A DNA stretch of 64,000 bases from a virus, in IMG/VR virus record IMGVR_UViG_3300028364_000023, positions 1 to 64,000 of that record. One strand, given 5' to 3'. The notes under the pieces are model-generated. The model saw nothing but the letters and a program-made list of their open reading frames with translations. It was not told where the DNA came from and did not search any database. The translations under genes and the position numbers were made by a program. Numbering within the stretch: position 1 is the stretch's first letter; each line of letters opens with the position of its first letter. Shown here one piece after another: positions 30,099 to 61,378 of the stretch.

Positions 30099-30587
30099 TT
30101 ACATTTTATTTGCTAAGTCGTTCAGAAGTTCTTGTGCTACATCTAATTGTCCGCCCTTTAGTGCTCGGTCCACTAATGCCAGTTGTTGACTGACTAGGCC
30201 TCGTGTGTGCTCGGCATCTTCTCTAGCAGCCTTGCGTTCTACACGTTCAGCTACTTCTAGCTTGGTTTGATACTCAAATACAAAATACGGATAATAGTCG
30301 TCGGTGTTTTCAGTGCCAAACTTTAACCAAATATGATCATCTGTAGTGTCTCGCAATACGTAGCCGTCAAAGCATCCATTGCACTTTTCTTCTACTGTTA
30401 CAGTTGCAAAGCTGCGACCTAAGAACACTAGCTTTTCGTCCTTGCGAGTTTCTACAGAATCTAAGTAGCTACGATATCCGTCGTCTTCATCCTCTATAGC
30501 CTCAAAGATGTGTTGACCAATCTTAAAGAACGTATCGTGAACACCATAGAACTTAAAAGTCTTGCCAACTACATCATCAAATAACAT
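30099..30587 (-). CDS. Unknown protein
   Basis: 162 residues from the ATG at 30587 with TTGGAGAG upstream. N-terminal half beta-rich (GKTFKFYGVHDTFFKIGQH), C-terminal half a long charged helix. Function unknown. Single gene from promoter 30647-30675. Confidence 0.6.
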   Translation of the reverse strand: MLFDDVVGKTFKFYGVHDTFFKIGQHIFEAIEDEDDGYRSYLDSVETRKDEKLVFLGRSFATVTVEEKCNGCFDGYVLRDTTDDHIWLKFGTENTDDYYPYFVFEYQTKLEVAERVERKAAREDAEHTRGLVSQQLALVDRALKGGQLDVAQELLNDLANKM

Positions 30588-30646
30588 TTTACTCTCCAAA
30601 CTTTGCTTTCAATCTTAGATACTCTGCGTATTTCTAATGTTCTAAC

Positions 30647-30675
30647 AGTATAAGAGAGATTAGATATTCTGTCAA
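30647..30675 (-). promoter_or_regulatory. Sigma70-type promoter
   Basis: TTGACA, 17 bp, TATACT on the minus strand. Confidence 0.84.
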
Positions 30676-30685
30676 CTAGTATTTA

Positions 30686-31618
30686 CTAAGCTGCATCCAA
30701 CCTAGCGAACAAGCCATTCCAAACGTCACATATTCCTCGGTGGCTCATGAACACTCCTATGTGCCCTGCGTCAACTAAGTAGGTTTGTGCGCGGGTGTAG
30801 CGTTGCAGAGCAAGAGATTGTTCACTTGGCGTAATGTCGTCACGCACTCCTGTAACAATGTGTACACCTTTTAAGCTGTTTAGCACAGTAAGGTCCACTT
30901 TGACACCGGCTATTGTGAGTTCGTTCTTACCTAGTAAGTTCTTCTTAAACAACTGTTCTACAGCCCATAGGTACCATTTACCTGCTAGATCCTGTGTATG
31001 ATCGTACCACTTGTAAAAGCGTCGAGCATCGTCGTCTGGATAGACATATCGTTCAAAATAGTGTTTACTTAGATTGCTGCTCTTCCAAGCTGCTAACATA
31101 GTTTGGCCTAGCATAAGACCTCCGCTCATCATTACAATAGCTTTATATAAGACTAAAGGCGTCTTCGTAGCGCGATGTATTACACTGTTACCTACTTTAG
31201 TATCAATAGGAGCTCCTGCTATTACTAGAGACGATACTTGATTTGGATGTAATGCTGCGTAGATTGTGGCTAGCCAGCCGCCTTGACACAACCCTACTAA
31301 TGTTGCTGTTCCGCCGACGTGCGATACACATTGATTAAGCTGTGATAGCAAGTCCTCTATGCCTTCGTTGCGGCGAGTATATGTACAGCTCTTCCACTCT
31401 ATTGTGTAGACACTGCCTGTGTAGTTTTTAGCAGCACTTTGTACTAAACTTTGGTTAGGTGCATAATCTGCTATGTTGCTGTGATGGCCTGCTTGTGGTG
31501 GAATAATTACAGCCGGCGTGCCTGTACCTTGTGAGAATTGTAATAGTTTAATTGCGTTAGTTTCATACACATTTTGGTGTTGTGTTGTCCAAGCGGTATT
31601 ACTTTGGTAATTGTTCAT
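30686..31618 (-). CDS. Polyhydroxyalkanoate synthase-like alpha/beta hydrolase
   Basis: 310 residues. The nucleophile elbow reads GLCQGGW with Cys111 where lipases have Ser; this GxCxG box is the mark of PHA synthase (PhaC). The rest of the triad is in place: GVRDDITP (Asp260 or 261) and AGHIGVF (His286). Size is close to class III/IV PhaC subunits. PHA synthases join hydroxyacyl-CoA into storage polyester; a related acyltransferase or depolymerase is possible. Phage role unknown. It sits between two noncoding/tRNA stretches. Confidence 0.78.
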   Translation of the reverse strand: MNNYQSNTAWTTQHQNVYETNAIKLLQFSQGTGTPAVIIPPQAGHHSNIADYAPNQSLVQSAAKNYTGSVYTIEWKSCTYTRRNEGIEDLLSQLNQCVSHVGGTATLVGLCQGGWLATIYAALHPNQVSSLVIAGAPIDTKVGNSVIHRATKTPLVLYKAIVMMSGGLMLGQTMLAAWKSSNLSKHYFERYVYPDDDARRFYKWYDHTQDLAGKWYLWAVEQLFKKNLLGKNELTIAGVKVDLTVLNSLKGVHIVTGVRDDITPSEQSLALQRYTRAQTYLVDAGHIGVFMSHRGICDVWNGLFARLDAA

Positions 31619-31687
31619 ACGGTTCCTTAGTTTGGATTAACCGTGTACTTATCTGTATATTTGTAGAGTGCTACAAACAAAGAATAT

Positions 31688-31762
31688 TGGCGACCCTACC
31701 TTGATTCGAACAAGGAACAGGAGTTTCGAAGACTCTTATGATATCCATTTCACCATAGGGCC
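31688..31762 (-). tRNA. tRNA-Arg(UCG)
   Basis: Complete cloverleaf; loop CTTCGAA gives UCG; G73 and encoded CCA. Confidence 0.92.
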
Positions 31763-32351: not shown

Positions 32352-32427
32352 TGGAGCGGATCAGGGGACTTGAACCCCTAACATCTGACTTGGAAGGACA
32401 GTGCTCTACCAATTGAGCTAGATCCGC
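32352..32427 (-). tRNA. tRNA-Gly(UCC)
   Basis: Complete cloverleaf, loop CTTCCAA, U73 and encoded CCA. Its first 10 bases overlap the end of the homing endonuclease upstream, whose stop codon lies inside the tRNA. Confidence 0.93.
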
Positions 32428-33050
32428 AAATTTTTACAGTTATCGAAATGATAACGCTTAAATGCTTGTTCGCCGCCTACTCTTTTACAGTAAGGACATT
32501 GTACTCTGTTCTGTTTCTTGCCTCTCAGACTTTCGGCAATCTTTTTTTTATGTTCTTCGGTTTTTATTCTTCCCGACACTGTCTTAGATATTGCTGCGTT
32601 TCTAGCAGGGTTTTTTGCTCTTATACGATTTGCTTCGGCTCTTTCTTCTCGGCACTCGTCTGTTGGACACCAAGTTCCGTTATCTCTTTTTGTTGCTAGC
32701 ATCTTCTTAATAGACGCTTGCGTATGTTTCCTTCCTTTAAATTTAGCTATACCGCTTTTATTAATGTAGGAAAATCCACCTTTCCCACCAACAATTAAGT
32801 TAAGGCACTGCTTGTCTTTCAAGACCGTTTCATTAACTAGCTCGTTTTCTTTTCTAAACATTTCTTCTTCACTAGTGCAGTCGAACAGAATTTCTTTATA
32901 AAAGCTCTCTTTTCCGTACTTTTTGATAGATTTAGCTAAGCGTGTTCCTGAACCTAAATATGAATCAGTTGGGTTATTAGTAACGTGTGTACCGATGTAA
33001 TATTTTCTGTTAATTATATTTGTTGTCTTGTATACTGTATAATGTTTCAT
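32418..33050 (-). CDS. GIY-YIG homing endonuclease
   Basis: 210 residues from the ATG at 33050. N-terminal GIY-YIG domain (YTVYKTTN ... KYYIGTH, later R and E in SEEEMFRKENELV), then NUMOD-like helices and a terminal zinc finger (CPYCKR...H...C). No Shine-Dalgarno; a CTAAATA box ends five bases before the ATG. It replaces the anticodon region of a tRNA-Gly gene. Confidence 0.85.
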   Translation of the reverse strand: MKHYTVYKTTNIINRKYYIGTHVTNNPTDSYLGSGTRLAKSIKKYGKESFYKEILFDCTSEEEMFRKENELVNETVLKDKQCLNLIVGGKGGFSYINKSGIAKFKGRKHTQASIKKMLATKRDNGTWCPTDECREERAEANRIRAKNPARNAAISKTVSGRIKTEEHKKKIAESLRGKKQNRVQCPYCKRVGGEQAFKRYHFDNCKNLRI

Positions 33051-33055
33051 ACAAT

Positions 33056-33063
33056 TATTTAGC
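33056..33063 (-). promoter_or_regulatory. Late-promoter-like GCTAAATA box
   Basis: Five bases before the GIY-YIG ATG; same layout as other homing genes. Confidence 0.35.
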
Positions 33064-33066
33064 AAT

Positions 33067-33101
33067 GAAGACACTCGTGTTACCCTTCACACCATGTCCG
33101 C
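33067..33101 (-). pseudogene. tRNA 5' half, Gly(UCC)-like, broken at anticodon
   Basis: GCGGACA, TG, D-arm GTG...CAC, anticodon stem AGTGT and loop start CTTC, then cut. Partner acceptor strand is at 32041-32065. Confidence 0.65.
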
Positions 33102-33115
33102 ATAATAGGTTATTA

Positions 33116-33164
33116 GCACAACGCATGGGCGGATGAACTATGTCGTTCCGCTCCTCGGGCAGAG
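33116..33164 (-). ncRNA. Repeated RNA hairpin, copy A
   Basis: 49-base element. Its stem GCGGA/TCCGC becomes GCAAA/TTTGC in copy B, two compensated base pairs, while the loop (ACGACATAGTT) is conserved. Confidence 0.55.
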
Positions 33165-33263
33165 TAAAGGTTCGCAGCCCCGATTAAGCATTCTTTCTGT
33201 TACTAGCCAAGCTAATAAATTTGGCGCTCTCGATAGGAGCTAAGTTCGCATTATAGTTCACTG

Positions 33264-33312
33264 GCACAATGCACGGGCAAATCAACTATGTCGTTTTGCT
33301 CCTCGGGTAGAG
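33264..33312 (-). ncRNA. Repeated RNA hairpin, copy B
   Basis: Second copy, 148 bases from the first, 41 of 49 bases identical. Both lie in a 270-base ORF-free gap between two GIY-YIG genes. Confidence 0.55.
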
Positions 33313-33369
33313 GATAAGAGTAACGATCTCTTTCTCTCGCATTGCAAGGTCTGTCCCATACAGATCCCC

Positions 33370-34020
33370 CTAAAACTTTATTTTTCTACCTTCTAACCAT
33401 CCTTCAGGTAGAGGTTCTTCTTTATTAACTTTTTTAGATTTCTTTAATTCTAAATTATGAATCCATCTTGTACCAAACTGAGAATTACCTTTACCAGTTT
33501 GGTGAATACTATTTGCTTTACCTATTTTCTTTTTTGATTCTTCATTATGGAATTTCCCTTTCCATACTCCTTCTGGGTATAATAGCTTATGAGCTTCCAC
33601 TCCAAGTCTACTGAACTCCTTCATACGTGACAGTTGCGCTGCGCGGAAGACAGGATCATTTTTCCATTTATCAACAAAAACTTTTGAACCAATATGCGGT
33701 TTATAGTCTACAAGACTACGATCAACATTTTCGTTAATCCAATCAAACCCACCTTGACCACCTTCTTTCAAATTATAGTTATCTTTATCTTTAATAAATT
33801 CTTCGTTAACTATCTTTGCTTCAGCAGAGAACATATCTTCTGGGTTGTCGTAAACTTCTAATATTTCTTTAGTGAAGTTTTCAATTCCATTTTTCTTTAT
33901 TGATAGCTTTAGGATCTTACCTGATCCCATATAGTCATCATTGATATCGTGAGTCTTATGGACTCCTACGTATATCTTATTGTTAATAATATTCGTTATC
34001 TTGTATAGTGTGTATAGCAT
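33370..34020 (-). CDS. GIY-YIG homing endonuclease
   Basis: 216 residues. YTLYKITN ... KIYVGVH at the N-terminus and a catalytic E in SAEAKIVNEEF; C-terminal basic NUMOD-type helices and the end RWIHNLELKKSKKV typical of phage SegA-like proteins. No zinc finger at the end. Preceded seven bases upstream by TATAAATA, no Shine-Dalgarno. Confidence 0.85.
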   Translation of the reverse strand: MLYTLYKITNIINNKIYVGVHKTHDINDDYMGSGKILKLSIKKNGIENFTKEILEVYDNPEDMFSAEAKIVNEEFIKDKDNYNLKEGGQGGFDWINENVDRSLVDYKPHIGSKVFVDKWKNDPVFRAAQLSRMKEFSRLGVEAHKLLYPEGVWKGKFHNEESKKKIGKANSIHQTGKGNSQFGTRWIHNLELKKSKKVNKEEPLPEGWLEGRKIKF

Positions 34021-34027
34021 ATACTAC

Positions 34028-34035
34028 TATTTATA
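34028..34035 (-). promoter_or_regulatory. Late-promoter-like TATAAATA box
   Basis: Exact T4 late -10 box seven bases before the GIY-YIG ATG. Confidence 0.5.
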
Positions 34036-34068
34036 CAAGTTCGATATTTATTGAACTATTCCTAAAAC

Positions 34069-34144
34069 TGGTCTCTCTGTGAGATTTTGAACCCCAGATT
34101 CTACGTCTCAAACGTAGGGTGTTACTAGACTACACTACAGAGAG
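34069..34144 (-). tRNA. tRNA with anticodon UGA, short variable loop
   Basis: Acceptor CTCTCTG/CAGAGAG, stem CTACG/CGTAG with loop TTTGAGA (UGA, Ser), A73 and CCA. The 4-base variable loop and Glu/Gln-like D-arm are wrong for Ser, so its charging identity is doubtful. A proper class II tRNA-Ser(UGA) lies at 39.8 kb. Confidence 0.65.
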
Positions 34145-34336
34145 ATAAATCTTTATTCACACGGCTTACAACTTATCGTCTGCGTTATGTTTGGTATCAC
34201 ATAGGGGTATCGATACCCTGTCTTCACCTTAAAAGGGTGCTGATCTGCCATTTAAAATGGCGAGATTCGAACCTACCTGTATCCTGCTAACCTTTCAACG
34301 ATTTCGTAGACCGAGGGTATACAGGCGCATTAAACT
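34145..34336 (-). other. Degenerate RNA region
   Basis: No ORF. Contains palindromes gggtatcgataccc (34205-34218) and GCCATTTTAAATGGC (34247-34261), a T-arm-like TTCGAAT and a CCTGTAT/ATACAGG pair around it. Probably decayed tRNAs. Confidence 0.4.
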
Positions 34337-34615
34337 TTAAAATGTTGTTGCCATCTCAGGAATAACATCAATCCTGGGATTCGCTTTTTCTTTCTCTGCT
34401 AACTCTTTCAAACTTGTTAACGGATAACACTTTCGTATTCCTTTGACACTAATACGAAAGAACGGTTCTTTCATGTAGTTAAAATGATTAGGCCGTAGCA
34501 ACTTCATAGGCTTTAGTATGCCGTCTATCTTGATCGAGTACAGTGTCTCGTTCTCAGTGTTGAAAAAGTAGCCTCTATGCTTGGTTGCGATATACTGTTC
34601 TGGTAAGCGTACCAT
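34337..34615 (-). CDS. Unknown 92-residue phage protein
   Basis: Starts MVRLPEQYIATKHRGYFFN; GYFFNTENETLYSIKIDG and later RISVKG resemble a small phage family I recall only as hypothetical. Possible DNA-binding beta sheet. Single gene from promoter 34659-34686. Confidence 0.6.
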   Translation of the reverse strand: MVRLPEQYIATKHRGYFFNTENETLYSIKIDGILKPMKLLRPNHFNYMKEPFFRISVKGIRKCYPLTSLKELAEKEKANPRIDVIPEMATTF

Positions 34616-34658
34616 GTTTCTTACTCTTTATTAACGTGTGTTTGTTTACTATGTACAA

Positions 34659-34686
34659 AGTATAGCATCAATAAGCGCTGTGTCAA
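34659..34686 (-). promoter_or_regulatory. Sigma70-type promoter
   Basis: TTGACA, 16 bp, TATACT on the minus strand. Confidence 0.82.
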
Positions 34687-34783
34687 CTACTTGTTTGGTG
34701 GAATGTACGGGACTGCGTAGTTACCCGTTCTCGGCTCTGAAATTATACCGAGCGCATTGGTCGTTAGCTAACACCCCATTGCT

Positions 34784-34859
34784 TGGTAGTACCACCTGGT
34801 GTCGATCCAGGACCTCTCGGTTATCAGCCGAGTGTACAGAGCCGCTATACTATGGTACT
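34784..34859 (-). tRNA. tRNA-Ile(GAU)
   Basis: Full cloverleaf; acceptor AGTACCA/TGGTACT, loop CTGATAA, A73, CCA. Confidence 0.9.
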
Positions 34860-34865
34860 ATAAAA

Positions 34866-34903
34866 TGGTCTCCTAGAGGGGTATCGATCCCCTTGCTCTT
34901 GGG
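34866..34903 (-). pseudogene. tRNA-Ile(UAU) 3' half
   Basis: Anticodon 3' stem CCAAG, T-arm AGGGG-ATCGATA-CCCCT, acceptor CTAGGAG, A73, CCA. Pairs with the 5' half at 35915-35950. Confidence 0.75.
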
Positions 34904-34911
34904 TGACTTTA

Positions 34912-34919
34912 CATAAATA
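34912..34919 (+). promoter_or_regulatory. Late-promoter-like CATAAATA box
   Basis: 46 bases before the plus-strand homing gene. Confidence 0.45.
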
Positions 34920-34964
34920 CATTGTGAATTAACCGCACTATTAGATAAAAACGGAGTTACTAAC

Positions 34965-35822
34965 TTGCATATTTATAAATCACCTATATGTTCTTGTATC
35001 ATATGCGGCAAACAGTTATCCGCCAAAGGCATAGCTGGACATCATCGACTTTCTCATGATGCTGCTCAAAGAGTTGCACATCAGCAGCGAATGAAATTTG
35101 TGGCTCCACAAATTTCAAGTAAACTAAAACAAAACACAATTAATCAGTTTAAGGAAACAGCTGATAAGTTTTGTAAGTCGTGCACCCTAGCTCTTCCATT
35201 TGAAAAACGGCACAGCACTTTTTGTTCAAAATCTTGTTCAACGACATTTACAAATACTAAACGGAAAGTAAAGGAGAGCACCAAGAAGAAACTTTCGTTG
35301 TATGCTAAAAATAATCCTTCCGGATTTGTTACTAATAGGCCGACTTTTCAACGTAAAGGAACGTATAAAACTTGCTCTTCTGAAACTTGCCAAAATAAAT
35401 TTTATGCCTATCCTTGTGAAGAAAGTAAAAAATACTGTTCATTTAGCTGCTTTATACCGTATTCTGGTGGCGAACGTAAAGGATCCGGAAATAGTAAAGG
35501 TGGATATTATAAAGGTTTTTATTTAGCATCTACATACGAACTGTGTTACTATATTTTTTGTGTTGATCACCAAATCTGCATTGAACGTAATAAAGAATCT
35601 TGGAAATATTATTACAACGGTAAGCACAGAAAGTATTATCCAGATTTTCGTGTCAACGGGCGTCTTGTTGAGATCAAAGGTTATTACACCCATGTTGTTG
35701 ACTTAAAATTACAGTCAGTGTCGGAACCTATTGATATACTGTATAAAAAGGATCTAAAATTTGTATTTGATTATGTTACTGATTTCTATTTTGTTACCGA
35801 CTATAAAGTTCTATACGATTAA
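34965..35822 (+). CDS. Homing endonuclease, PD-(D/E)xK-like with zinc fingers
   Basis: 285 residues, TTG start with ACGGAG eight bases upstream. N-terminal CIICG...H...H finger, then CKSC/CSKSC and a later CSS/CSFSC finger, then a nuclease-like end: FYLASTYELCYY (E), YYPDF (PD) and VEIKG (ExK), the order of a PD-(D/E)xK core. AT-rich. It sits, with tRNA-Glu, inside a split tRNA-Ile. No GIY-YIG or HNH motif. Confidence 0.72.
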   Translation: MHIYKSPICSCIICGKQLSAKGIAGHHRLSHDAAQRVAHQQRMKFVAPQISSKLKQNTINQFKETADKFCKSCTLALPFEKRHSTFCSKSCSTTFTNTKRKVKESTKKKLSLYAKNNPSGFVTNRPTFQRKGTYKTCSSETCQNKFYAYPCEESKKYCSFSCFIPYSGGERKGSGNSKGGYYKGFYLASTYELCYYIFCVDHQICIERNKESWKYYYNGKHRKYYPDFRVNGRLVEIKGYYTHVVDLKLQSVSEPIDILYKKDLKFVFDYVTDFYFVTDYKVLYD

Positions 35823-35824
35823 GT

Positions 35825-35900
35825 TGGTGCTCTTAGTGGGACTCGAACCCAACATTACTGGAGTGAAAGTCCAGTGTCCTAACCTTTAGACGATAAGAGC
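35825..35900 (-). tRNA. tRNA-Glu(UUC)
   Basis: Full cloverleaf; loop CTTTCAC, acceptor GCTCTTA/TAAGAGC, A73, CCA. Confidence 0.92.
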
Positions 35901-35914
35901 GTATAGTTTTAAAA

Positions 35915-35950
35915 ATAAGCCAAGTGATTTAGCCACTAATCGACTAGGAG
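35915..35950 (-). pseudogene. tRNA-Ile(UAU) 5' half
   Basis: CTCCTAG, TC, D-arm GATT/AATC, anticodon stem CTTGG and loop CTTAT, cut after position 36. Its acceptor strand holds the stop codon of the gene at 35944. Confidence 0.75.
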
Positions 35951-36396
35951 TTATTCTGTTGCGCATTGTTATGGCACTGTTCAACAAATTCTAACAATCT
36001 GCTGTACGCTGCTGCTAACATTGCGTCCTGTTTATGATGCCTGTGTGTGTCGCACATTACTTCAATCTTTGAGCCTTTGTAATGATTCTTGCGAAGTCCG
36101 TCACTAAGCAATAAAAATTCTATATCAGTTTCAGTGTCCTTAAAGTGCCAAACGTGCGGCGAACTTTCAAACGCAGGTACTGAATTGTTAGGTTTTGGCA
36201 ACGTGCGTATGACCTCAGGCCAATGATACGATGCATTGTTTCCTCTAGTCCTAACTCGTTCTTCGTACTCTCGATCAATTACTTGTGTAACCAACGGAAA
36301 GTTGGTAGTGTAAGCAAAGTTTATCATAGCACAACTGTTGTTCTCTTCTTTTAAAAACCACTTGTAGGAGCGATGTCCTGGAACTTGTACTATCAT
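35944..36396 (-). CDS. Unknown protein
   Basis: 150 residues, His-rich near the end (CDTHRHHKQD), possibly metal-binding. Stop lies in a tRNA fragment. Function unknown. Promoter at 36428-36455. Confidence 0.6.
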   Translation of the reverse strand: MIVQVPGHRSYKWFLKEENNSCAMINFAYTTNFPLVTQVIDREYEERVRTRGNNASYHWPEVIRTLPKPNNSVPAFESSPHVWHFKDTETDIEFLLLSDGLRKNHYKGSKIEVMCDTHRHHKQDAMLAAAYSRLLEFVEQCHNNAQQNNS

Positions 36397-36427
36397 ACCG
36401 CTTACCTTTTATCTAACTGTTATACAC

Positions 36428-36455
36428 AGTATACAGTCTTTTACAGTTTTGTCAA
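36428..36455 (-). promoter_or_regulatory. Sigma70-type promoter
   Basis: TTGACA, 16 bp, TATACT on the minus strand. Confidence 0.8.
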
Positions 36456-36464
36456 CTGTTTGTT

Positions 36465-36540
36465 TGGCAGCCCCGGTAGGGTATGATCCTACAACCTCCT
36501 GAGTCAAAGTCAGGCGCTCTGCCAATTGAGCTACGAGGCA
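36465..36540 (-). tRNA. tRNA-Gln(UUG)
   Basis: Loop CTTTGAC; T-arm GTAGG/CCTAC; G73 and CCA. Only U1-U72 is unpaired, as is common in Gln tRNAs where 1-72 is weak. Confidence 0.88.
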
Positions 36541-36547
36541 ATAAAAA

Positions 36548-36654
36548 TGGAGCAGGGTTGGGGATTCTAACCCCTGGTGGATGCTGTGGATAACCCCTAA
36601 CACCTCTTATGGATTCATACCAGAAAGCACTGGACTTACCCTGCATAAATTGGT
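36548..36654 (-). tRNA. Oversized tRNA-like element, anticodon unclear
   Basis: Acceptor GCAGGGT/ACCCTGC, T-arm GGGG-TTAGAAT-CCCC, U73 and CCA are intact, but 104 bases separate the ends and no 5-bp/7-base anticodon arm fits. Hairpin CCAG/CTGG near the 5' side. Insertion-bearing or decayed tRNA. Confidence 0.45.
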
Positions 36655-36749
36655 GGAACGTGCTGGCGACCGAGGACGGACCAGGATCTACCATTATAGG
36701 ACTCAAACTTGTTCCTCTACGTCTGTTGTGAACCTATGTCCTAAATGTT
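36655..36749 (-). other. tRNA-like debris downstream of a homing gene
   Basis: No ORF. TTAGGAC/GTCCTATAA pairing and a TTTGAGT T-loop-like segment; an ACGTTCCACCA end-like piece beside it. Confidence 0.35.
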
Positions 36750-37388
36750 TTACTGTAACGTCTTGTTTACTACTCGGCCTCTTCTGTACCCTTCTGGTAT
36801 AAGTTCAGTCTTCTTAATCTTCTTTGATTCTACTTCGTTTGTAATCCACATCGTACCAAACTGCGAATTTCGTTTTCCTTTACTATGAATTTTAGCCTTT
36901 TCACTAATTAGTTGTTTAGTTGCGTCAGTATGTTTTTTTCCTAAAAAAGTTCTAAGGGCCAATGCTGCTAAGGAAGTGCTAATGCGTTTGTTGGTCTCTT
37001 CTGTATGACTTCTGCCGTAAAAAGTACCGTTTGGATACTTTGATATTCTAGCTTTACACATTTTATTCATATGTTCTTTTGAATGCGAAGAATTGTTTTT
37101 GTTAACATAGTCCCATCCACCAAATCCACCTACTTTTAAATTATAAGTGTTAGCTTCTGTCAAAAATTCTTCATTTACTAATTCTGCTTCTTTTGCGTAC
37201 ATTAGCTCAGGAGTATCAAAAATAAACAATATTTCTTTCACAAAATTATCAATTCCGTGTTTTTCTAATGCTCGCTTCAAATACTTACCTGAGCCCATAT
37301 AGCCGTCATTAAGATTAGGGGTCTTATGAGATCCGATATAGATCTTGCCGTTCATCTTATTTGTAACTTTGTATATAGTATAGTTCAT
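36750..37388 (-). CDS. GIY-YIG homing endonuclease
   Basis: 212 residues from the ATG at 37388. YTIYKVTN ... KIYIGSH, catalytic E in AKEAELVNEEF, NUMOD helices and an MWITNEVESKKIKK end much like the gene at 33370. TATAAATA ends four bases before the ATG; no Shine-Dalgarno. A 10-bp hairpin (GAGTCTTAAC) lies just upstream. Confidence 0.85.
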   Translation of the reverse strand: MNYTIYKVTNKMNGKIYIGSHKTPNLNDGYMGSGKYLKRALEKHGIDNFVKEILFIFDTPELMYAKEAELVNEEFLTEANTYNLKVGGFGGWDYVNKNNSSHSKEHMNKMCKARISKYPNGTFYGRSHTEETNKRISTSLAALALRTFLGKKHTDATKQLISEKAKIHSKGKRNSQFGTMWITNEVESKKIKKTELIPEGYRRGRVVNKTLQ

Positions 37389-37392
37389 ACTG

Positions 37393-37400
37393 TATTTATA
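37393..37400 (-). promoter_or_regulatory. Late-promoter-like TATAAATA box
   Basis: Four bases before the GIY-YIG start at 37388. Confidence 0.5.
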
Positions 37401-37438
37401 CAAAGTTCGAGTCTTAACACTAAGTTAAGACTCAAATG

Positions 37439-37521
37439 CTCCCCGGGTAGGCTTCGAACCTACAGCTCCTTGCGGAACCGGATTAACAGTCCGGCGACTT
37501 TACCATTTTGTCTACCGAGGA
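37439..37521 (-). tRNA. tRNA-Asn(GUU)-like with long variable arm
   Basis: Acceptor TCCTCGG/CCGGGGA, stem CCGGA/TCCGG, loop CTGTTAA. The 14-base variable region forms TCC-GCAA-GGA, a class II feature unusual for Asn. G73; CCA not encoded. Confidence 0.8.
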
Positions 37522-37544
37522 ATAAATTCTAAAAATGTTATTTG

Positions 37545-37617
37545 CTCCTAAGGCCGGGCACGATCCAGCGACATTCGGTTTAACAGACCGACGCTCTACC
37601 AACTGAGCTACTTAGGA
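37545..37617 (-). tRNA. tRNA-Asn(GUU) with extended acceptor stem
   Basis: Normal class I cloverleaf, loop CTGTTAA, G73, no CCA. The pairing of the ends continues nine bases beyond the 7-bp acceptor (16 bp in all, 37537-37552 with 37611-37626). Confidence 0.88.
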
Positions 37618-37651
37618 GCAAATAACACTTATCTTGCTTTAATGTATAACT

Positions 37652-37679
37652 ATAATAACATCTGTGTTGTGTTTGTCAA
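37652..37679 (-). promoter_or_regulatory. Sigma70-type promoter for tRNA-Asn pair
   Basis: TTGACA, 16 bp, TATTAT on the minus strand. Confidence 0.7.
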
Positions 37680-37683
37680 TCCC

Positions 37684-38145
37684 TTATTTCTGATACTGTA
37701 AAGTTACTTCTCGTCCGTTCTCAACAAATTTCACAATACTGTAATCATATTGCTGCTGATACGACGTAGAGTACGTGGTACTGTTAAAACAACGTTGCTC
37801 CTGTCTATAGCCTACTACTACTGTGGAGGTAGAACCTGAGTGTCCTCTAGCGCCACCAATCAATGCACCTGCCGCAGTGGCTGCATCACGTCCACTTCCT
37901 CCGCCAAACTGCCTTCCTACTGCTGCACCTATTACTGCACCTATCAGAGTGTCTGATGTGCTGCCCTGCTGTCGAACTGTACCGTAGACCGGAACCTGTT
38001 CGACACCACACTGCTGGCTCACATGAGGTGTCTGTACTGCTACATCTCGGTAGTGATGAACTACTTGTGCGTTAACTCGCTGTCCTGCAACTAAAGGAGC
38101 AGATAGAGCAATTGCAAGTACGCCTGCTAACAGTTTGACCTTCAT
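37684..38145 (-). CDS. Outer-membrane-type protein with glycine zipper
   Basis: About 153 residues. Signal peptide MKVKLLAGVLAIALSAPLVAG, then a glycine-zipper double segment (LIGAVIGAAVGRQFGGGSG ... AAGALIGGARG) as in the 17-kDa surface antigen/SlyB-like family. Two Cys flank it. Met at 38151 is an alternative start with poorer RBS spacing. Probably inserted in the host envelope; superinfection exclusion is a guess. Confidence 0.72.
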   Translation of the reverse strand: MKVKLLAGVLAIALSAPLVAGQRVNAQVVHHYRDVAVQTPHVSQQCGVEQVPVYGTVRQQGSTSDTLIGAVIGAAVGRQFGGGSGRDAATAAGALIGGARGHSGSTSTVVVGYRQEQRCFNSTTYSTSYQQQYDYSIVKFVENGREVTLQYQK

Positions 38146-38177
38146 GTTCATTATCCTCTTTACTTTAATGTTTAACT

Positions 38178-38206
38178 ACAATAGCAATGTATTTACTATC
38201 TGTCAA
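38178..38206 (-). promoter_or_regulatory. Sigma70-type promoter
   Basis: TTGACA, 17 bp, TATTGT on the minus strand. Confidence 0.72.
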
Positions 38207-38276
38207 CTCCTCATTTACAATATGTGGAGTGTAGCAGCACCGCCCTGCTCAGTTATTGGACTAGGTCCTCACTATG

Positions 38277-38450
38277 CTAGCCTAATCTAGACACCCCGTA
38301 GTTGGCTGTACTATTTACTGCTCTTTCTGTTCGTTTATAATAAACTTGACACTTACCGCATACAGCGTCATCCTGCATAATACGCAGTTTAAGAGCCTCT
38401 AGCGTGTCGTAGCTGCTGTCTTTAATGTTTCTGCATACACACGCTATCAT
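38277..38450 (-). CDS. Bfd-like [2Fe-2S] protein
   Basis: 57 residues from the ATG at 38450 (AGAGGAAG upstream). CVC near the N-terminus and CGKC about 30 residues later is the four-Cys pattern of bacterioferritin-associated ferredoxin. Bfd reduces iron in bacterioferritin using Fpr, and an Fpr-like gene is present at 3.5 kb. Release of stored iron during infection is a reasonable hypothesis. Confidence 0.68.
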   Translation of the reverse strand: MIACVCRNIKDSSYDTLEALKLRIMQDDAVCGKCQVYYKRTERAVNSTANYGVSRLG

Positions 38451-38466
38451 AACACTTCCTCTAAAT

Positions 38467-38537
38467 TGGCGCGTCGACGAGGTTACGATCCTCACAAGAT
38501 CGGTTTTGGAGACCAATCAGTACCCAGTACCCGACGC
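38467..38537 (-). tRNA. tRNA-Trp(CCA), short D-arm
   Basis: Acceptor GCGTCGG/TCGACGC, stem TTGGT/ACCGA with loop CTCCAAA, T-arm GAGG-ATCGTAA-CCTC, G73 and CCA. D-arm only GTAC-TGG-GTAC. Its first 21 bases overlap the 3' end of the HNH gene. Confidence 0.82.
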
Positions 38538-39212
38538 ATATAAAACTTCTTTAGCCCACTTGCCTACCCCGGACTTTAACGAATATGAATTGCCATATCC
38601 CATTTTGTCGAGTGCTGTCGAGAAGGCATAACCTTCTTCTATTAGGCTAATAAACTTGTCTTTTCTTTTCAAAAATTCTAATTCGTTTTTTGTTACACGA
38701 CTTAGCTGTAATTTAGTAAGGCATCCTTGACAATATTTTGCATGCTGTGAAGTAATTTTAACCAGACAACCAGTACAATGCTTCTGTGTTGATTTTCTCC
38801 CTTTAATCCAGCCTATTGGAACATTTTCTTTAAGAAACTTCCCGTTTTCTAAAGTCTCAGGATTATAATACCAGGGCTTCCCGTACGACGAGTTTTCACT
38901 TCCTTTTCGTTTTCTACACTCGCTAATGTAACGTTTCTTTATCCATCCGTACTGTTTATTACTACGCAAATTCTTTCTACTACTAACAGTCATCATATTA
39001 GCAGCGTATACCAACTTATGTTCCTTTGGGTGCATCTTAACTAGTAACTGATGTGCTACATAGTGCTCTTCAGGAGTTAATGCTACTATATTCTCTCTGT
39101 CATCTGTGCCGCCTAAGCATCTAGGAACAATATGATGTTTCTCAGTGTAACCGTCAAATACTCGTGTTTTTGCTCGTTCAATCAATGTCGCATAATGTTT
39201 GTTATAGTTCAT
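38517..39212 (-). CDS. HNH homing endonuclease
   Basis: 231 residues from the ATG at 39212. HNH core EKHHIVPRCLGGTDDRENIV ... HYVAHQLLVKMHP near residues 20-55, then a CTGC...CQGC zinc ribbon and a helical C-terminus. GATAAATA lies five bases before the ATG. The frame ends inside tRNA-Trp, and the upstream flank (39229-39282) is a truncated second tRNA-Trp copy. Confidence 0.87.
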   Translation of the reverse strand: MNYNKHYATLIERAKTRVFDGYTEKHHIVPRCLGGTDDRENIVALTPEEHYVAHQLLVKMHPKEHKLVYAANMMTVSSRKNLRSNKQYGWIKKRYISECRKRKGSENSSYGKPWYYNPETLENGKFLKENVPIGWIKGRKSTQKHCTGCLVKITSQHAKYCQGCLTKLQLSRVTKNELEFLKRKDKFISLIEEGYAFSTALDKMGYGNSYSLKSGVGKWAKEVLYASGTGY

Positions 39213-39217
39213 ACGAC

Positions 39218-39225
39218 TATTTATC
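39218..39225 (-). promoter_or_regulatory. Late-promoter-like GATAAATA box
   Basis: Five bases before the HNH gene start. Confidence 0.4.
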
Positions 39226-39228
39226 ATT

Positions 39229-39282
39229 TTGCGAACCCCGCTTACTGGTTTTGGAGACCAATCCGTACCCTGTACCTGAGGC
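39229..39282 (-). pseudogene. tRNA-Trp fragment, cut in the T-loop
   Basis: Same D-arm and anticodon arm as the intact tRNA-Trp (a shared run through CTCCAAAACC), then GGGG-TTCG and a break into the HNH promoter region. Confidence 0.7.
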
Positions 39283-39290
39283 ATAAACTT

Positions 39291-39982: not shown

Positions 39983-40690
39983 CTACTTTTTAAAATTAAT
40001 TAAACTATCTGCAAAGCGGTGATTGGTGTCTCGATGACCCACTTCGTCCATTCTGACCACTATAATGACATCGCGCAAAGTCGCATCGACGGGCAATTTC
40101 CAATAGTCAATTGCAATCTGCGGCGCGGCCACGTTTTCCAAACGGCCGCTGTCCACCTCAGCCAGGTATTCGCTATAGCTGTAAACCGCCTCTTCTTCAA
40201 AATAACCCACTAGCCGATGTGCGGTGCGGCCCGAAACAACATAGAGAAACAGAAAGCTGGTGAAGAAAATTCCCTGCGCCAACAAAATCAACACCCGTTC
40301 CAGAAAGCTGGGCTGAGCAATTTGCACAAACGTCATCAGGTGCATGCGCTCGTTTTCAGCCTCTTCCAGCAGCGTGTGAATCCATTCCCGATTGTCCTCC
40401 ATCCGACGGAGGGAGCGCATGTGCCCCAGCATTCCTCCGACCATTCCCGGTACTGCGGCTACGGTTTCCAATACTACCGCACGATGGCCATAGCGTTTGG
40501 CAAAAAATAGGTCTGCAAAAAACCGCAACAGCCTGGTTAAGCGAAAGGCCACGCGGTCAGAAAACCCCGACGGAGTATGATGCTTGCTCAGCGGATCACT
40601 ATGTTTGTCCAAGTTCATTTTACATAGTCTAGCATGAGCAGACTCTTTGCTATCATCTTTAAATTTCTTTCCACAGTGTACACATTTCAT
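39983..40690 (-). CDS. aox: Alternative oxidase (AOX) with N-terminal zinc finger
   Basis: Membrane-bound di-iron quinol oxidase that passes electrons from ubiquinol to oxygen without pumping protons. 235 residues. Di-iron ligands are all visible: LETVAAVPG (Glu75), NERMH (Glu114, His117), YFEEEA (Glu165-167) and DEVGHRD (Glu216, His219), with RYGHRAVVLET before. Residues 1-24 are foreign to AOX: MKCVHCGKKF...H..LC is a zinc finger in AT-rich phage-like DNA, while from Met25 (40618) the gene is distinctly GC-richer. It could also start at Met25. Probably a recent bacterial acquisition; cyanophages carry the related PTOX. Confidence 0.92.
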   Translation of the reverse strand: MKCVHCGKKFKDDSKESAHARLCKMNLDKHSDPLSKHHTPSGFSDRVAFRLTRLLRFFADLFFAKRYGHRAVVLETVAAVPGMVGGMLGHMRSLRRMEDNREWIHTLLEEAENERMHLMTFVQIAQPSFLERVLILLAQGIFFTSFLFLYVVSGRTAHRLVGYFEEEAVYSYSEYLAEVDSGRLENVAAPQIAIDYWKLPVDATLRDVIIVVRMDEVGHRDTNHRFADSLINFKK

Positions 40691-40753
40691 ATTTATCAGC
40701 TCAGAATTGATAGTTGTTATTTTCAATACTAGTAATGCTACAAATTTCTTACA

Positions 40754-40786
40754 CAAAAAAAGCCCAGTGCGTGTGCAGTGGGCTTG
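40754..40786 (-). terminator. Rho-independent terminator
   Basis: AGCCCA stem with TGGGCT, one mismatch, CACACG loop, seven T on the minus strand. Ends leftward transcripts before the AOX gene. Confidence 0.82.
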
Positions 40787-40811
40787 TAAAGTGTCGAACT
40801 GTTCTTTCGCT

Positions 40812-40892
40812 CTACACCAAACCCACCATAACACTATTACTCGAATTATTCCAAGTAGTTGTTAGTGATGACAGCAGTGTAGTAAGTTTCAT
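40812..40892 (-). CDS. Possible 26-residue peptide
   Basis: MKLTTLLSSLTTTWNN... between the WYL_2-like gene and the terminator; AAAGGAA 13 bases upstream and a GATAAATA box at 40922-40929. Weak support. Confidence 0.3.
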   Translation of the reverse strand: MKLTTLLSSLTTTWNNSSNSVMVGLV

Positions 40893-50317: not shown

Positions 50318-51127
50318 TTAACCCTGTATACGCTGCCTGATCTCACCCAAGCTGGTTTGGTTGTAGAGCTTGCTGTCCTTAAACACAGTCTTTAGCTCAC
50401 CGCCTGCTTCTTCAGCCCACGTTACTTGGTCTTGCATTACGTATTCTCCGTCTACTAGATCAACACGTAACAAACCTTTAGCACTCTTCTTTGTGCCGCT
50501 GTCTGTTGCTGGGTCTTTAAAGATTTCACGTCCTACTCCGTTGACCTCACCATAGGTTGCCTTCATTGCAAACCCCATGCTGTCGCGTGTGTTGTACTGG
50601 TAAGTGTATGACCCCACTCCAAGAACAACGTTGCTGCTAGCAAAGCCTTTGTCTGCCAGTCTGCGTAGAATTGCGTGTGCGCGTTCTAGCGTAATGCTAT
50701 CGCCATAGATTAAGCCAATATGCTCGTCTAATTCTCTATAACCACAGTCGGTTAGCGTACCACCAAAAGTGTCCCACAGGCATTCGATAGCGCCTTTGAC
50801 TTCTGCAGGAGACAGTGTGATACCGTCCTTGTAGCTAATGAGCTCACCGTCTTCTTCGATGTAATATTCGTCTTCAGTGTAGCCTGTGATGATCTTTACA
50901 GGGTCTCCGCTGTCTGGACGCAACACTACCTTGTTAAGGCCAATGGCGTTTGGTTGGCGAGCCATAATAACGTCTTTGAGCGCAGGAATATACTCAGTAA
51001 CCACAGTCCAAAAGTCCCACGTGTCACTAACAATAGATACAAGCCCTGTTGGATACAGGTCTTCGACCAAGTGCCGAAACAGTTCCTGCTCGCAGTAGTT
51101 CATGATTTCTTTTTCGGTATACGACAT
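50318..51127 (-). CDS. nadV: Nicotinamide phosphoribosyltransferase, C-terminal half
   Basis: 269 residues from the ATG at 51127, which has AAAGGAA upstream. It carries the C-terminal NAMPT motifs: PTGLVSIVSDTWDFW, VVLRPDSGDP (catalytic Asp), LIYGDSIT, NVVLGVGSY, KATYGEVNG and GREIFKDP. Fused in thought to the N-terminal half at 51810, the total is about 517 residues, right for phage NadV. A longer frame to 51259 exists but lies outside the homologous part. The product makes NMN from nicotinamide and PRPP, or the equivalent ADP-ribosyl product if this is the Namat type. Confidence 0.9.
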   Translation of the reverse strand: MSYTEKEIMNYCEQELFRHLVEDLYPTGLVSIVSDTWDFWTVVTEYIPALKDVIMARQPNAIGLNKVVLRPDSGDPVKIITGYTEDEYYIEEDGELISYKDGITLSPAEVKGAIECLWDTFGGTLTDCGYRELDEHIGLIYGDSITLERAHAILRRLADKGFASSNVVLGVGSYTYQYNTRDSMGFAMKATYGEVNGVGREIFKDPATDSGTKKSAKGLLRVDLVDGEYVMQDQVTWAEEAGGELKTVFKDSKLYNQTSLGEIRQRIQG

Positions 51128-51143
51128 AAAATTTCCTTTTTTG

Positions 51144-51151
51144 TATAAATA
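51144..51151 (+). promoter_or_regulatory. Late-promoter-like TATAAATA box
   Basis: Exact box 21 bases before the HNH gene, with ACGGAG between. Confidence 0.5.
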
Positions 51152-51172
51152 CACATAACGGAGTGTAAAATA

Positions 51173-51898
51173 ATGAATTACATAAAAACTTATAACGCTA
51201 TAATAGCACAGTTTGGGCAACGTGTCAAGCCAAAAGACGTTTATTCTGAAAGGCACCATATTGTTCCTAAGTCGATCGGCGGAACCAACTGTTCTACTAA
51301 TTTAGTATACTTGTCTGCTCGTGTACATTTTATATGTCACAGGATGCTTTGTAAGATATATCCAGAATCTGATAAACTAAAATTTGCTTTCTGGGCAATG
51401 AACAATCAACTTAACGGTGATGTTCAACGATACTACAAAATTACTTCTCGAACATTTCAGACTGCTAAAGAGCAATTTGCTATTGCTAATTCTAACTTAC
51501 ATTCTGGAAAAACACTATCGCCTGAGCACATTAATATTATTAGACAACTTATTAAAACTAACAACCCTCATAAAGGTGGTAAAGAATCTCACTTATATAA
51601 CATACCAAGAACACCTGACGTTGTCGACAAGATAAGAAATACAAAACTTGCGCATCCTGAAAGGAATGCTAACTTTAAGGGGCACTATGTAACCCCTAAA
51701 GGAACTTTCGGGTCTGCTCCGCAAGCAGCCCGAAGCACTCCTTATACCGCCGGAACAGTGCGCAACTTTTGCTCAAATCCTGACAGGATTGTTACTAAGC
51801 AAATGTTAACTAACCCTTGGCTATCTGAAGAACACGTCGGTGCGCGTCTTCGAGACTTAGGTTGGGATTTTCTTCCAGCTGCTCGCCGATTAACTTAG
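51173..51898 (+). CDS. HNH homing endonuclease inserted in nadV
   Basis: 241 residues on the plus strand. HNH core ERHHIVPKSIGGTNCSTNLV ... HFICHRML near residues 26-60, NUMOD-like middle and basic C-terminal helix. Own late-type promoter and Shine-Dalgarno. It lies antisense between the two halves of nadV and its end overlaps the N-terminal half by 89 bases. Confidence 0.88.
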   Translation: MNYIKTYNAIIAQFGQRVKPKDVYSERHHIVPKSIGGTNCSTNLVYLSARVHFICHRMLCKIYPESDKLKFAFWAMNNQLNGDVQRYYKITSRTFQTAKEQFAIANSNLHSGKTLSPEHINIIRQLIKTNNPHKGGKESHLYNIPRTPDVVDKIRNTKLAHPERNANFKGHYVTPKGTFGSAPQAARSTPYTAGTVRNFCSNPDRIVTKQMLTNPWLSEEHVGARLRDLGWDFLPAARRLT

Positions 51899-52661
51899 AT
51901 AAGTTTCCTACGTTACAGCTCATGACCGAATGTTCGGTTGCAGGAATGCTACACCCAATCATTTCTTTAGCTGGATCTGCGTTGTAGTACTCTTCTAAAT
52001 AGTCAATTGATGGAACACCGTCTGTGCCCACAAAGGACAGCAAGTGCCCGGCCCCTGAGCTTGCGGAATCGTGTAGTCCACTCATTCCCCGGAAGCTAAA
52101 GTCGTGACACTGAATAGGAACGCCATCGAGTGATGCGCCAGTTAGATTAGCATACTTTGTAAGTATTTCGCGATACTCTTTTGCGAGCGTAGCAACTACG
52201 CTTGGCTTCCACAGCTCTGAGCTCATCACGCTTTCAATGTAGTTAACCAGCCAGTAAAACTCTGGTACTGTATTCTTGACTGTAAGAACAGCTACTTTTT
52301 CCGGCACACTTACGCCTTCTGGCAGACCTTTAATCTCTAAAGGCAAATAGCCCAAGTCGTGTAATGCTTCGACGTGATCCATTGGCACAGCGCCGTCACC
52401 TAAGCTAGAGTCAAGTCTTCTTTGATACTTGGCTACAACTTCTGCCTTTGGCTTGTTGAAGAAAGTTTCGTTCCACATATCAATGAGGAACCATTTGCAG
52501 AATCCCTGTAGTCCGAACACTACAGTCTCAGTAGCGTTGCCTTTGTACAGGCGCATACTGCGTGGTGTAAAGTTGCTGTAGACTAGCTCAGTACCTTCTG
52601 GGTACTGGCGTCTGTGATCTGCTTTGTAAAAGTCGATTGCTGAAAGGGCGTCTAATCTCAT
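51810..52661 (-). CDS. nadV: Nicotinamide phosphoribosyltransferase, N-terminal half
   Basis: 283 residues, of which 1-248 match NAMPT: YKADHRRQYP, YSNFTPRS, HDFSFRGMSG, and SIPATEHSVM with the phosphorylated catalytic His244. The last 35 residues are not NAMPT and are read antisense through the HNH gene tail. The split lies right after the catalytic His motif. The halves could reassemble as two subunits. Confidence 0.9.
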   Translation of the reverse strand: MRLDALSAIDFYKADHRRQYPEGTELVYSNFTPRSMRLYKGNATETVVFGLQGFCKWFLIDMWNETFFNKPKAEVVAKYQRRLDSSLGDGAVPMDHVEALHDLGYLPLEIKGLPEGVSVPEKVAVLTVKNTVPEFYWLVNYIESVMSSELWKPSVVATLAKEYREILTKYANLTGASLDGVPIQCHDFSFRGMSGLHDSASSGAGHLLSFVGTDGVPSIDYLEEYYNADPAKEMIGCSIPATEHSVMSCNVGNLSKLIGEQLEENPNLSLEDAHRRVLQIAKG

Positions 52662-53546: not shown

Positions 53547-54431
53547 TTACGCCCTTGTAATGTCGAACACACTAACAGGAATGCTGGTGTGTTCTGGAAT
53601 GTTATCTTTAAAAATATTGGTTGTAATCACTTGATCAATAACTTTAGCAATTTCAGTAAATCCTTTGCTGAAGATACCGTGCGGCACAGCTAGGATTACT
53701 TTACTAGCACCCTTTTCGCGTAGTGCTTCTGCCAGCTTAATAAACGTAAATCCACCGTCGCAGATGTCATCGTAAATGAGGCAAACTTTGCCTACAAGCT
53801 CTGGACCTGCGTGTACTGCTGTGCTAGTGATCTGTCCTGTGACCACATCACGCACCTTATCTGCCATTACAACGTCCACTTGCGGCAGGCGATGGTGTTT
53901 TGTAGTATTAAGCATTTGGGCAAACCCAAGCGTTCGTTTCATTGCGCCTGCATCTGGCGATACAATAATGAGATCATTTTTCAAATCTCTTGGAATAGAG
54001 TCTGGAATAAAAAGATTCCAGTTTGAAGTATACAGGTTTTCGTCACAGTTGTTAAGCAATGCTGGAGCAACTTCACTGTGAGGCATTAGTACGTGTACGC
54101 GATCGAATTGCATAGCGTTGATTATATCACAGAACACACGAATGCCGAGCGCTTCTCCTTCGACGCATACACGGTCTTGACGAGCGTAGGGAATGTAAGG
54201 CATTTTTAGTGTGATCTTTACATTGTCTGCGTGTCTACGGATTGCGTCAGTGACCATAGCCAATTTGATAATCTCAGCTGAGCTGGTAAGGATAGCAGTA
54301 ATATGCACATCCCACGCTGCGTGTCGCCTAGGACCACTAAATCGAATGTGCTCTTCACCGCCACTAAACGTAAACGATTCGTATGGAACGTTGTGTTTGC
54401 CGTTAGTATATGATGTCACTGTGATTGTCAT
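53547..54431 (-). CDS. prs: Ribose-phosphate pyrophosphokinase-like enzyme
   Basis: 294 residues. MPYIPYARQDR, VSPDAGAMKR and the PRPP-loop VCLIYDDICDGGFTF are in the expected order of PRPP synthetase. ATG at 54431; a longer frame lacks support. Together with NadV it could make PRPP then NMN. Alternatively it is of the Adps type, which pyrophosphorylates ADP-ribose in the NARP1 route to NAD rebuilding. Cannot be separated by eye. Confidence 0.9.
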   Translation of the reverse strand: MTITVTSYTNGKHNVPYESFTFSGGEEHIRFSGPRRHAAWDVHITAILTSSAEIIKLAMVTDAIRRHADNVKITLKMPYIPYARQDRVCVEGEALGIRVFCDIINAMQFDRVHVLMPHSEVAPALLNNCDENLYTSNWNLFIPDSIPRDLKNDLIIVSPDAGAMKRTLGFAQMLNTTKHHRLPQVDVVMADKVRDVVTGQITSTAVHAGPELVGKVCLIYDDICDGGFTFIKLAEALREKGASKVILAVPHGIFSKGFTEIAKVIDQVITTNIFKDNIPEHTSIPVSVFDITRA

Positions 54432-54432
54432 A

Positions 54433-54591
54433 CTATTTGCCTTCTTTGTTGTACATTTCGTAGGTACAGCAAGCTGCAAAGAATGCAAAGCCAACGACCC
54501 ATCCGGTACCTTGGGTGAAGTATGCTACTGCTGCCACTGCTCCCCAGATAGCAATGTTGCTAATGCCTTTGCCTAGTCCTTCAGTATCCAT
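54433..54591 (-). CDS. 52-residue membrane protein
   Basis: One or two hydrophobic helices (IAIWGAVAAVAYF; GWVVGFAFFAACC). One base separates its stop from the prs-like start, and it follows the promoter at 54624-54652. Confidence 0.65.
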   Translation of the reverse strand: MDTEGLGKGISNIAIWGAVAAVAYFTQGTGWVVGFAFFAACCTYEMYNKEGK

Positions 54592-60030: not shown

Positions 60031-60056
60031 ACTGGTCCTTTATTTTTGTATGCCTA

Positions 60057-61367: not shown

Positions 61368-61378
61368 AATAGATCCTG

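Follow-up and report, generated by a model that had tools for sequence, protein, structure and literature searches.

A large uncultured tailed phage carries an intact gene for a cysteine hydrolase that belongs neither to the polyhydroxyalkanoate (PHA) synthases (PhaC) nor to the known intracellular PHA depolymerases (PhaZ). The protein, P0001, sits on sequence grounds in a sister clade of PhaC, PhaZ and the DUF3141 proteins, here called the GLCQGGW clade. Our confidence is high that it functions as a Cys enzyme within the PHA superfamily. Its role is a matter of lesser certainty: with slightly less than even confidence, we regard it as the product of a phage auxiliary metabolic gene that mobilises PHA or 3-hydroxyacyl units, working in the breakdown direction. 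That phages may carry PHA genes has been suggested before: from PHA-producing mixed cultures, phaC was reported, by annotation, among the auxiliary genes that phages transcribe (PMC12013262). In the part of the literature that we covered, what appears to be new is the GLCQGGW clade itself, how far it lies from PhaC and from PhaZ alike, and its occurrence in several different phages.

The gene and its phage setting

The window, 64,000 nucleotides long, makes up the opening 64 kb of a virus record of 101,423 bases. The record encodes topoisomerase II subunits, DNA and RNA ligases, NrdA, a head maturation protease and NAD-salvage genes, and the window holds 13 phage tRNA genes, the majority in a stretch where homing endonuclease genes lie among them. 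Judged by this gene content, which is T4-like, the record is that of a large tailed phage and not a bacterial chromosome. The gene for P0001 is set between these virus genes, and the original prediction was right in calling it a phage gene. The 310-residue frame described there is also real and intact, although its strand had not been given: the minus strand of 30686-31618 has a single uninterrupted ORF with an ATG start and a TAG stop, and the plus strand has many stop codons. The features of the gene are collected in Table 1. The strong promoter-like sequence just past the stop codon probably serves the next gene (30099-30599).

Table 1. Features of the P0001 gene and its immediate surroundings
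Feature	Position	Strand	Basis
310-aa Cys alpha/beta hydrolase ORF (P0001), PhaC/PhaZ superfamily, GLCQGGW-clade member	30686..31618	-	Open frame, profiles, AlphaFold model, PhaC fold match
Nucleophile elbow GLCQGGW, residues 109-115; Cys111 codon 31286-31288	31274..31294	-	Sequence; Cys invariant in all compared groups
Acid motif D260-D261-I-T-P-x-x-Q267; His replaces D261 in PhaC	30818..30841	-	Residue table
Catalytic His motif G285-H286-I-G288	30755..30766	-	Residue alignment
AAGGA ribosome-binding-like sequence 5' of the ATG	31624..31628	-	Sequence
tRNA-Arg(tcg) directly upstream of the P0001 gene, within the phage tRNA run	31688..31762	-	ARAGORN; Rfam
Sigma-70-like promoter TTGACA-17-TATACT, just past the P0001 stop	30647..30675	-	Consensus scan, in itself no proof of function

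Between P0001 and its viral relative L003 (64% identity), differences at codon positions 1, 2 and 3 number 92, 76 and 207. This third-position excess points to purifying selection, by which the protein sequence has been kept; dS is saturated for the pair, and no selection ratio is therefore given. As for possible partners, neither a phasin nor PTB was found in the phage record, with working controls in both cases. PhaE (PF09712) was not found in the 101-kb record either, but for this search the control was silent and the record may be incomplete.

Other features of the window deserve mention. Between the tRNAs of a tRNA-rich stretch at 32418-39284 lie several ORFs that resemble GIY-YIG/NUMOD3 and HNH homing endonucleases. 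An alternative oxidase gene lies at 39983-40834 on the minus strand (Pfam AOX, E 1.3e-82). Among cultured phages it has one matching record, Kyanoviridae phage C48C1, where the product is called a 'hypothetical protein'. As a gene that might travel together with that of P0001 it was set aside: none was found in the six relative records, most of which are fragments and in which the control was silent. The nicotinamide phosphoribosyltransferase gene (50318-52661, minus strand) is split into an N-terminal half at 51810-52661 and a C-terminal half at 50318-51259. An opposite-strand ORF with an HNH-like ERHHIVPKS motif (51173-51898, plus strand) lies between the halves, and no Rfam intron was found. 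A PRPP synthetase gene is located nearby (53547-54494), and relatives of the NAD-salvage ORFs are held by L008, one of the viral contigs described below. Finally, at least four paralogous ORFs of differing length (five by tally) are found on the minus strand at 58840-63142 and at L006:13230-14645. They have in common an N-terminal region of ~220 residues (phrog_17056), and Salicola phage SCTP-2 has six such places.

Profiles and predicted structure

The best-scoring named profile for P0001 is that of class III PhaC (TIGR01836, E 8.7e-26), which is covered along most of its length at 90.7 bits, as against a curated cut-off of 365.3. The PhaZ profile (TIGR01849, E 3e-17) gives 62.4 bits and is likewise below its curated cut-off, 300.75. 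Two Pfam cut-offs are exceeded: that of PHB_depo_C (PF06850; E 1.4e-10, 41.4 bits, cut-off 27) and that of DUF3141 (PF11339; E 9e-12, 44.8 bits, cut-off 29.7), the latter matching at model positions 69-344 of 582 only.

The AlphaFold model of P0001, built with 60 sequences, has a mean pLDDT of 92.8. Among solved structures, class I PHA synthases come nearest to it (best Z 32.5, rmsd 3.0, 292 residues), and the cap region is kept and aligned with PhaC across those 292 residues. Structural Z scores are about 29-32.5 for PhaC and 24.5 for gastric lipase, the next other fold. We found no solved structure that is sequence-related to PhaZ (TIGR01849) or DUF3141. PhaC matches would thus be expected for the whole superfamily, and the fold cannot decide between a synthase and a depolymerase. 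The structure prediction and comparison proposed with the original prediction have delivered a confident model with PhaC as its best match; as a model, it supports a place in the PHA enzyme superfamily without choosing among the branches.

Ordinary serine hydrolases and homoserine acyltransferases had been named at the outset as the homologues that would tell against a PHA-type enzyme. Both were rejected, together with proline iminopeptidase and enzymes of that sort: their profiles score far below those of the PHA families, and their structural Z is 24.5 or less.

A mosaic of PhaC-like and PhaZ-like residues

Cys111, Asp260 and His286 are invariant among the 26 aligned proteins, which comprise viral, bacterial GLCQGGW-clade, PhaC, PhaZ and DUF3141 sequences. 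The full triad read earlier from the Cys nucleophile, a downstream Asp and the AGHIG motif is thus present, and as a predicted triad it lies far above chance. Intracellular depolymerases of the Ralstonia eutropha type likewise use Cys-His-Asp (PMC2666664), so that having a Cys triad does not identify an enzyme as a synthase.

The residues around the triad point in two directions. The GxCxGG elbow (G113, G114), W204, N227, D51 and S57 follow PhaC and, for the most part, differ from PhaZ. In the residue table, P41, G44, Q267 and F290 agree with PhaZ and DUF3141 and not with PhaC; D261 agrees with PhaZ, and DUF3141 has N or D at this position. Immediately following the catalytic Asp, 10 of 10 PhaC proteins have His, and 22 of 22 GLCQGGW-clade members have Asp or Asn. 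That His is listed as conserved near the CoA site of PhaC (Cn H481, Cs H448, Ap H311; PMC10215190). P0001 is therefore best described as a mosaic, belonging to neither PhaC nor PhaZ. A signature for the GLCQGGW clade can be written as the GLCQGGW elbow, W204-Y205, G257-x-x-D260-[DN]-I-[TS], Q267 and G285-H286. P0001 has every element, and the columns hold in the 22 tabulated members, one viral member having T for W115.

Phylogeny and distribution

In a maximum-likelihood tree under a mixture model, P0001 and its relatives from the viral contigs L003, L008, L135 and L004 form an all-viral clade (support 100/99), and the clade of class I and III PhaC excludes P0001 with the same support, 100/99. 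PhaZ and DUF3141 each form a separate clade, DUF3141 on a very long branch. Groupings were compared by AU tests. Uniting the five viral proteins in one clade with class III PhaC (p 0.0009) or with PhaZ (p 0.015) was rejected; a clade with all PhaC was borderline and not quite rejected (p 0.06). One clade with DUF3141 was not seen in the tree and was not rejected (p 0.28). The proteins of L005 and L009 have their own long branch apart from the other five and possibly reflect a second transfer; a single group of all seven viral proteins, with support 73/29, is neither shown nor rejected.

Scans of IMG/VR returned seven contigs with a relative, of which one (L002) carries a copy identical to P0001 and the others six further proteins. 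Identities to P0001 are 64% for L003, 47% for L135, 46% for L008, 38% for L004 and 31% for both L005 and L009. All seven distinct viral proteins are full-length with an intact triad. Where checked, the neighbours of the viral relatives are phage-like (helicases, a DnaB-like protein, DNA methylases), and they differ from phage to phage. On the bacterial side, relatives are encoded in 400 stretches, with identity reaching 43%, mainly from Deltaproteobacteria, Burkholderiales, Rhodobacterales and other Proteobacteria.

Among 50,697 cultured-phage records, P0001 had no match, and neither PhaZ nor the L009 protein found one in the cultured-phage collection. A class III PhaC query matched only contigs of 'Acinetobacter phage MD-2021a' (75-306 kb; phbC_1, phbC_2), and a bacterial GLCQGGW-clade query only two of these contigs. 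They look like mislabelled bacterial contigs, and no credible cultured phage in the searched collection carries such a gene.

Bacterial neighbourhoods

Within ~4 kb of the GLCQGGW-clade gene, 17 of 80 bacterial loci have a phosphate acetyl/butyryltransferase, 13 an acetate/propionate kinase and 18 a proton-efflux P-type ATPase. These loci are related, many being from Burkholderia, and the counts are not independent. Such neighbours were nonetheless seen in Burkholderia, Rhodanobacteraceae, Xanthobacteraceae, Novosphingobium, Oricola, Methylopila and Thioclava, and thus span several alpha-, beta- and gammaproteobacterial families. A ptb-ack-gene arrangement is seen repeatedly, in Burkholderia, Xanthobacteraceae, Novosphingobium and Thioclava. 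A transferase and kinase pair of this kind converts acyl-CoA to the acid and ATP, the ATP being made at the kinase step. Two precedents are at hand: Ptb-Buk converts 3HB-CoA to 3HB, and PhaZa1 with a phasin frees 3HB-CoA from PHB granules in the presence of CoA (PMC7147478).

Eight genomes with a GLCQGGW-clade gene were searched for companion PHA enzymes. Class III PhaC is present as a separate gene in the three deltaproteobacterial genomes, and a PhaZ, class I PhaC or DUF3141 gene occurs separately in others of the eight; the host synthase thus need not come from the clade. In these eight genomes the clade is an addition to the known PHA enzymes and not a replacement for them.

On Burkholderia and Paraburkholderia plasmids, GLCQGGW-clade proteins are annotated as 'PHB de-polymerase domain protein' or 'alpha/beta fold hydrolase'. 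Two Burkholderiaceae plasmids (L091 and L092) have a common island with FtsH, a GLCQGGW-clade member, a UbiB-like kinase, a metal P-type ATPase and DUF3141 in the same order. An ORF at L076:4783-7140 that seemed to recur in 51 loci was discarded as an antisense artefact overlapping the query gene.

Proposed function and alternatives

In the mechanism that we propose, P0001 would be a soluble, single-domain alpha/beta hydrolase in which His286 and Asp260 activate Cys111, so that a 3-hydroxyacyl group becomes bound to it as an acyl-thioester. (R)-3-hydroxyacyl units would in this way be moved from host PHA, or from oligomers, to CoA (thiolysis) or to water, and the released units could provide carbon and energy for the phage during infection. 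Breakdown is favoured over synthesis because the bacterial relatives adjoin genes that lead from acyl-CoA to ATP, with Ptb plus kinase and PhaZa1 as precedents. The residues that agree with PhaZ (D261, Q267, P41, G44 and F290), the separate clade and the companion PhaC and PhaZ genes of the bacterial genomes count on the same side. Homology, triad, fold, phage location, separate clade and bacterial neighbours are established here; the substrate (PHA or a 3-hydroxyacyl compound), the direction and the benefit to the phage we infer, and it is by analogy that we pass from the neighbours of bacterial proteins with ~40% identity to the substrate of the phage protein. Against a mobilising enzyme stand the PhaC-like elbow, W204, N227, D51 and S57, the top rank of the class III PhaC profile, the rejection of a grouping with PhaZ, the borderline result for a clade with all PhaC, and the searches of the phage record that yielded no PTB, phasin or PhaE. 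A more specific version, which we put forward only tentatively, is that the phage proteins make up a viral offshoot of a third type of Cys PHA enzyme, neither a synthase nor a known depolymerase, that taps granules and frees 3-hydroxyacyl-CoA for ATP. To our knowledge, no cultured phage has been shown to tap the carbon-storage granules of its host through release of 3-hydroxyacyl-CoA.

Other readings of P0001 have to be weighed against mobilisation. A soluble acyl-CoA or acyl-ACP thioesterase, transacylase or esterase, applying the same Cys chemistry to small acyl groups and unrelated to PHA granules, would for example trim acyl-CoA pools or lipids in the infected cell. We consider this rather unlikely, but it has several points in its favour: we know of no characterised or assayed member of the GLCQGGW clade, the bacterial neighbours handle short acyl-CoA and acyl-phosphates, the phage record yielded no phasin, and the AU test is compatible with one clade with DUF3141, a family whose function is unassigned. 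It is opposed by the match to the PhaC profile mostly from end to end, the PHB_depo_C match and the PhaC-aligned cap region.

The original prediction was of a PHA-synthase-like enzyme. What stands of it is membership of the PHA enzyme superfamily as an alpha/beta hydrolase with a Cys-Asp-His triad; class III PhaC is its top named profile, class I PhaC gives its top structural matches, and the elbow, W204, N227, D51 and S57 are shared with PhaC. The synthase name itself is not established, for P0001 reaches 90.7 of 365 bits, falls outside the clade of class I and III PhaC, is rejected as a grouping with class III, and has Asp in place of the conserved CoA-site His. Class III PhaC was accordingly dropped as the identity of the protein, as was PhaZ, which fails on its cut-off, the tree and the elbow motif. 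That P0001 is nevertheless a minimal PhaC, polymerising 3-hydroxyacyl-CoA and diverting host carbon into PHA or short oligomers, seems to us improbable. The transcribed phage phaC of mixed cultures (PMC12013262) would be a parallel, but the PhaC structural match is expected superfamily-wide, PhaE was not found in the record (its control being silent), and bacterial genomes with the clade own a separate PhaC or PhaZ. Lastly, the gene could be a non-adaptive passenger, a host gene acquired by chance and unused. Its rarity in viral collections (seven contigs, one identical) and the different neighbours in each phage would fit, but we give this very little credence in view of the intact triads and full lengths, the third-position excess between P0001 and L003, and the deep, well-supported all-viral clade.

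If the mobilising function holds, phages would be able to tap the plastic-like carbon store of their hosts. A function for the GLCQGGW clade would moreover cover enzymes that occur widely among Proteobacteria, often in connection with ATP generation from acyl-phosphates, and it would clarify the relationship between PHA synthases and depolymerases.

Comparison with known PHA enzymes

With class III PhaC, P0001 has in common the GxCxGG elbow, the Cys-Asp-His triad, a single catalytic domain, W204 and N227, at ~26% identity over the full length; it differs in lacking the His after the catalytic Asp, where it has D261, and in having Q267. The no-lipase-box PhaZ of the R. eutropha PhaZa1 type (TIGR01849) resembles it in the Cys triad, the DDI motif, Q267 and the PHB_depo_C match. 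Unlike P0001, however, PhaZ has the elbow [AS][VI]CQP instead of GLCQGG, a Glu at the position of W204 and an N-terminus that is ~100 residues longer. DUF3141 proteins share a GxCQ[AG]GW elbow and the D-[DN]-I-T-P-x-x-Q motif, but the C-terminal half of the 582-position model has no counterpart in P0001. The bacterial members of the GLCQGGW clade have the same motifs throughout and a core of equal length, with identity of up to 43%. They are mostly longer (~330-370 aa) and often adjoin ptb-ack or a proton ATPase, whereas the phage copies stand alone.
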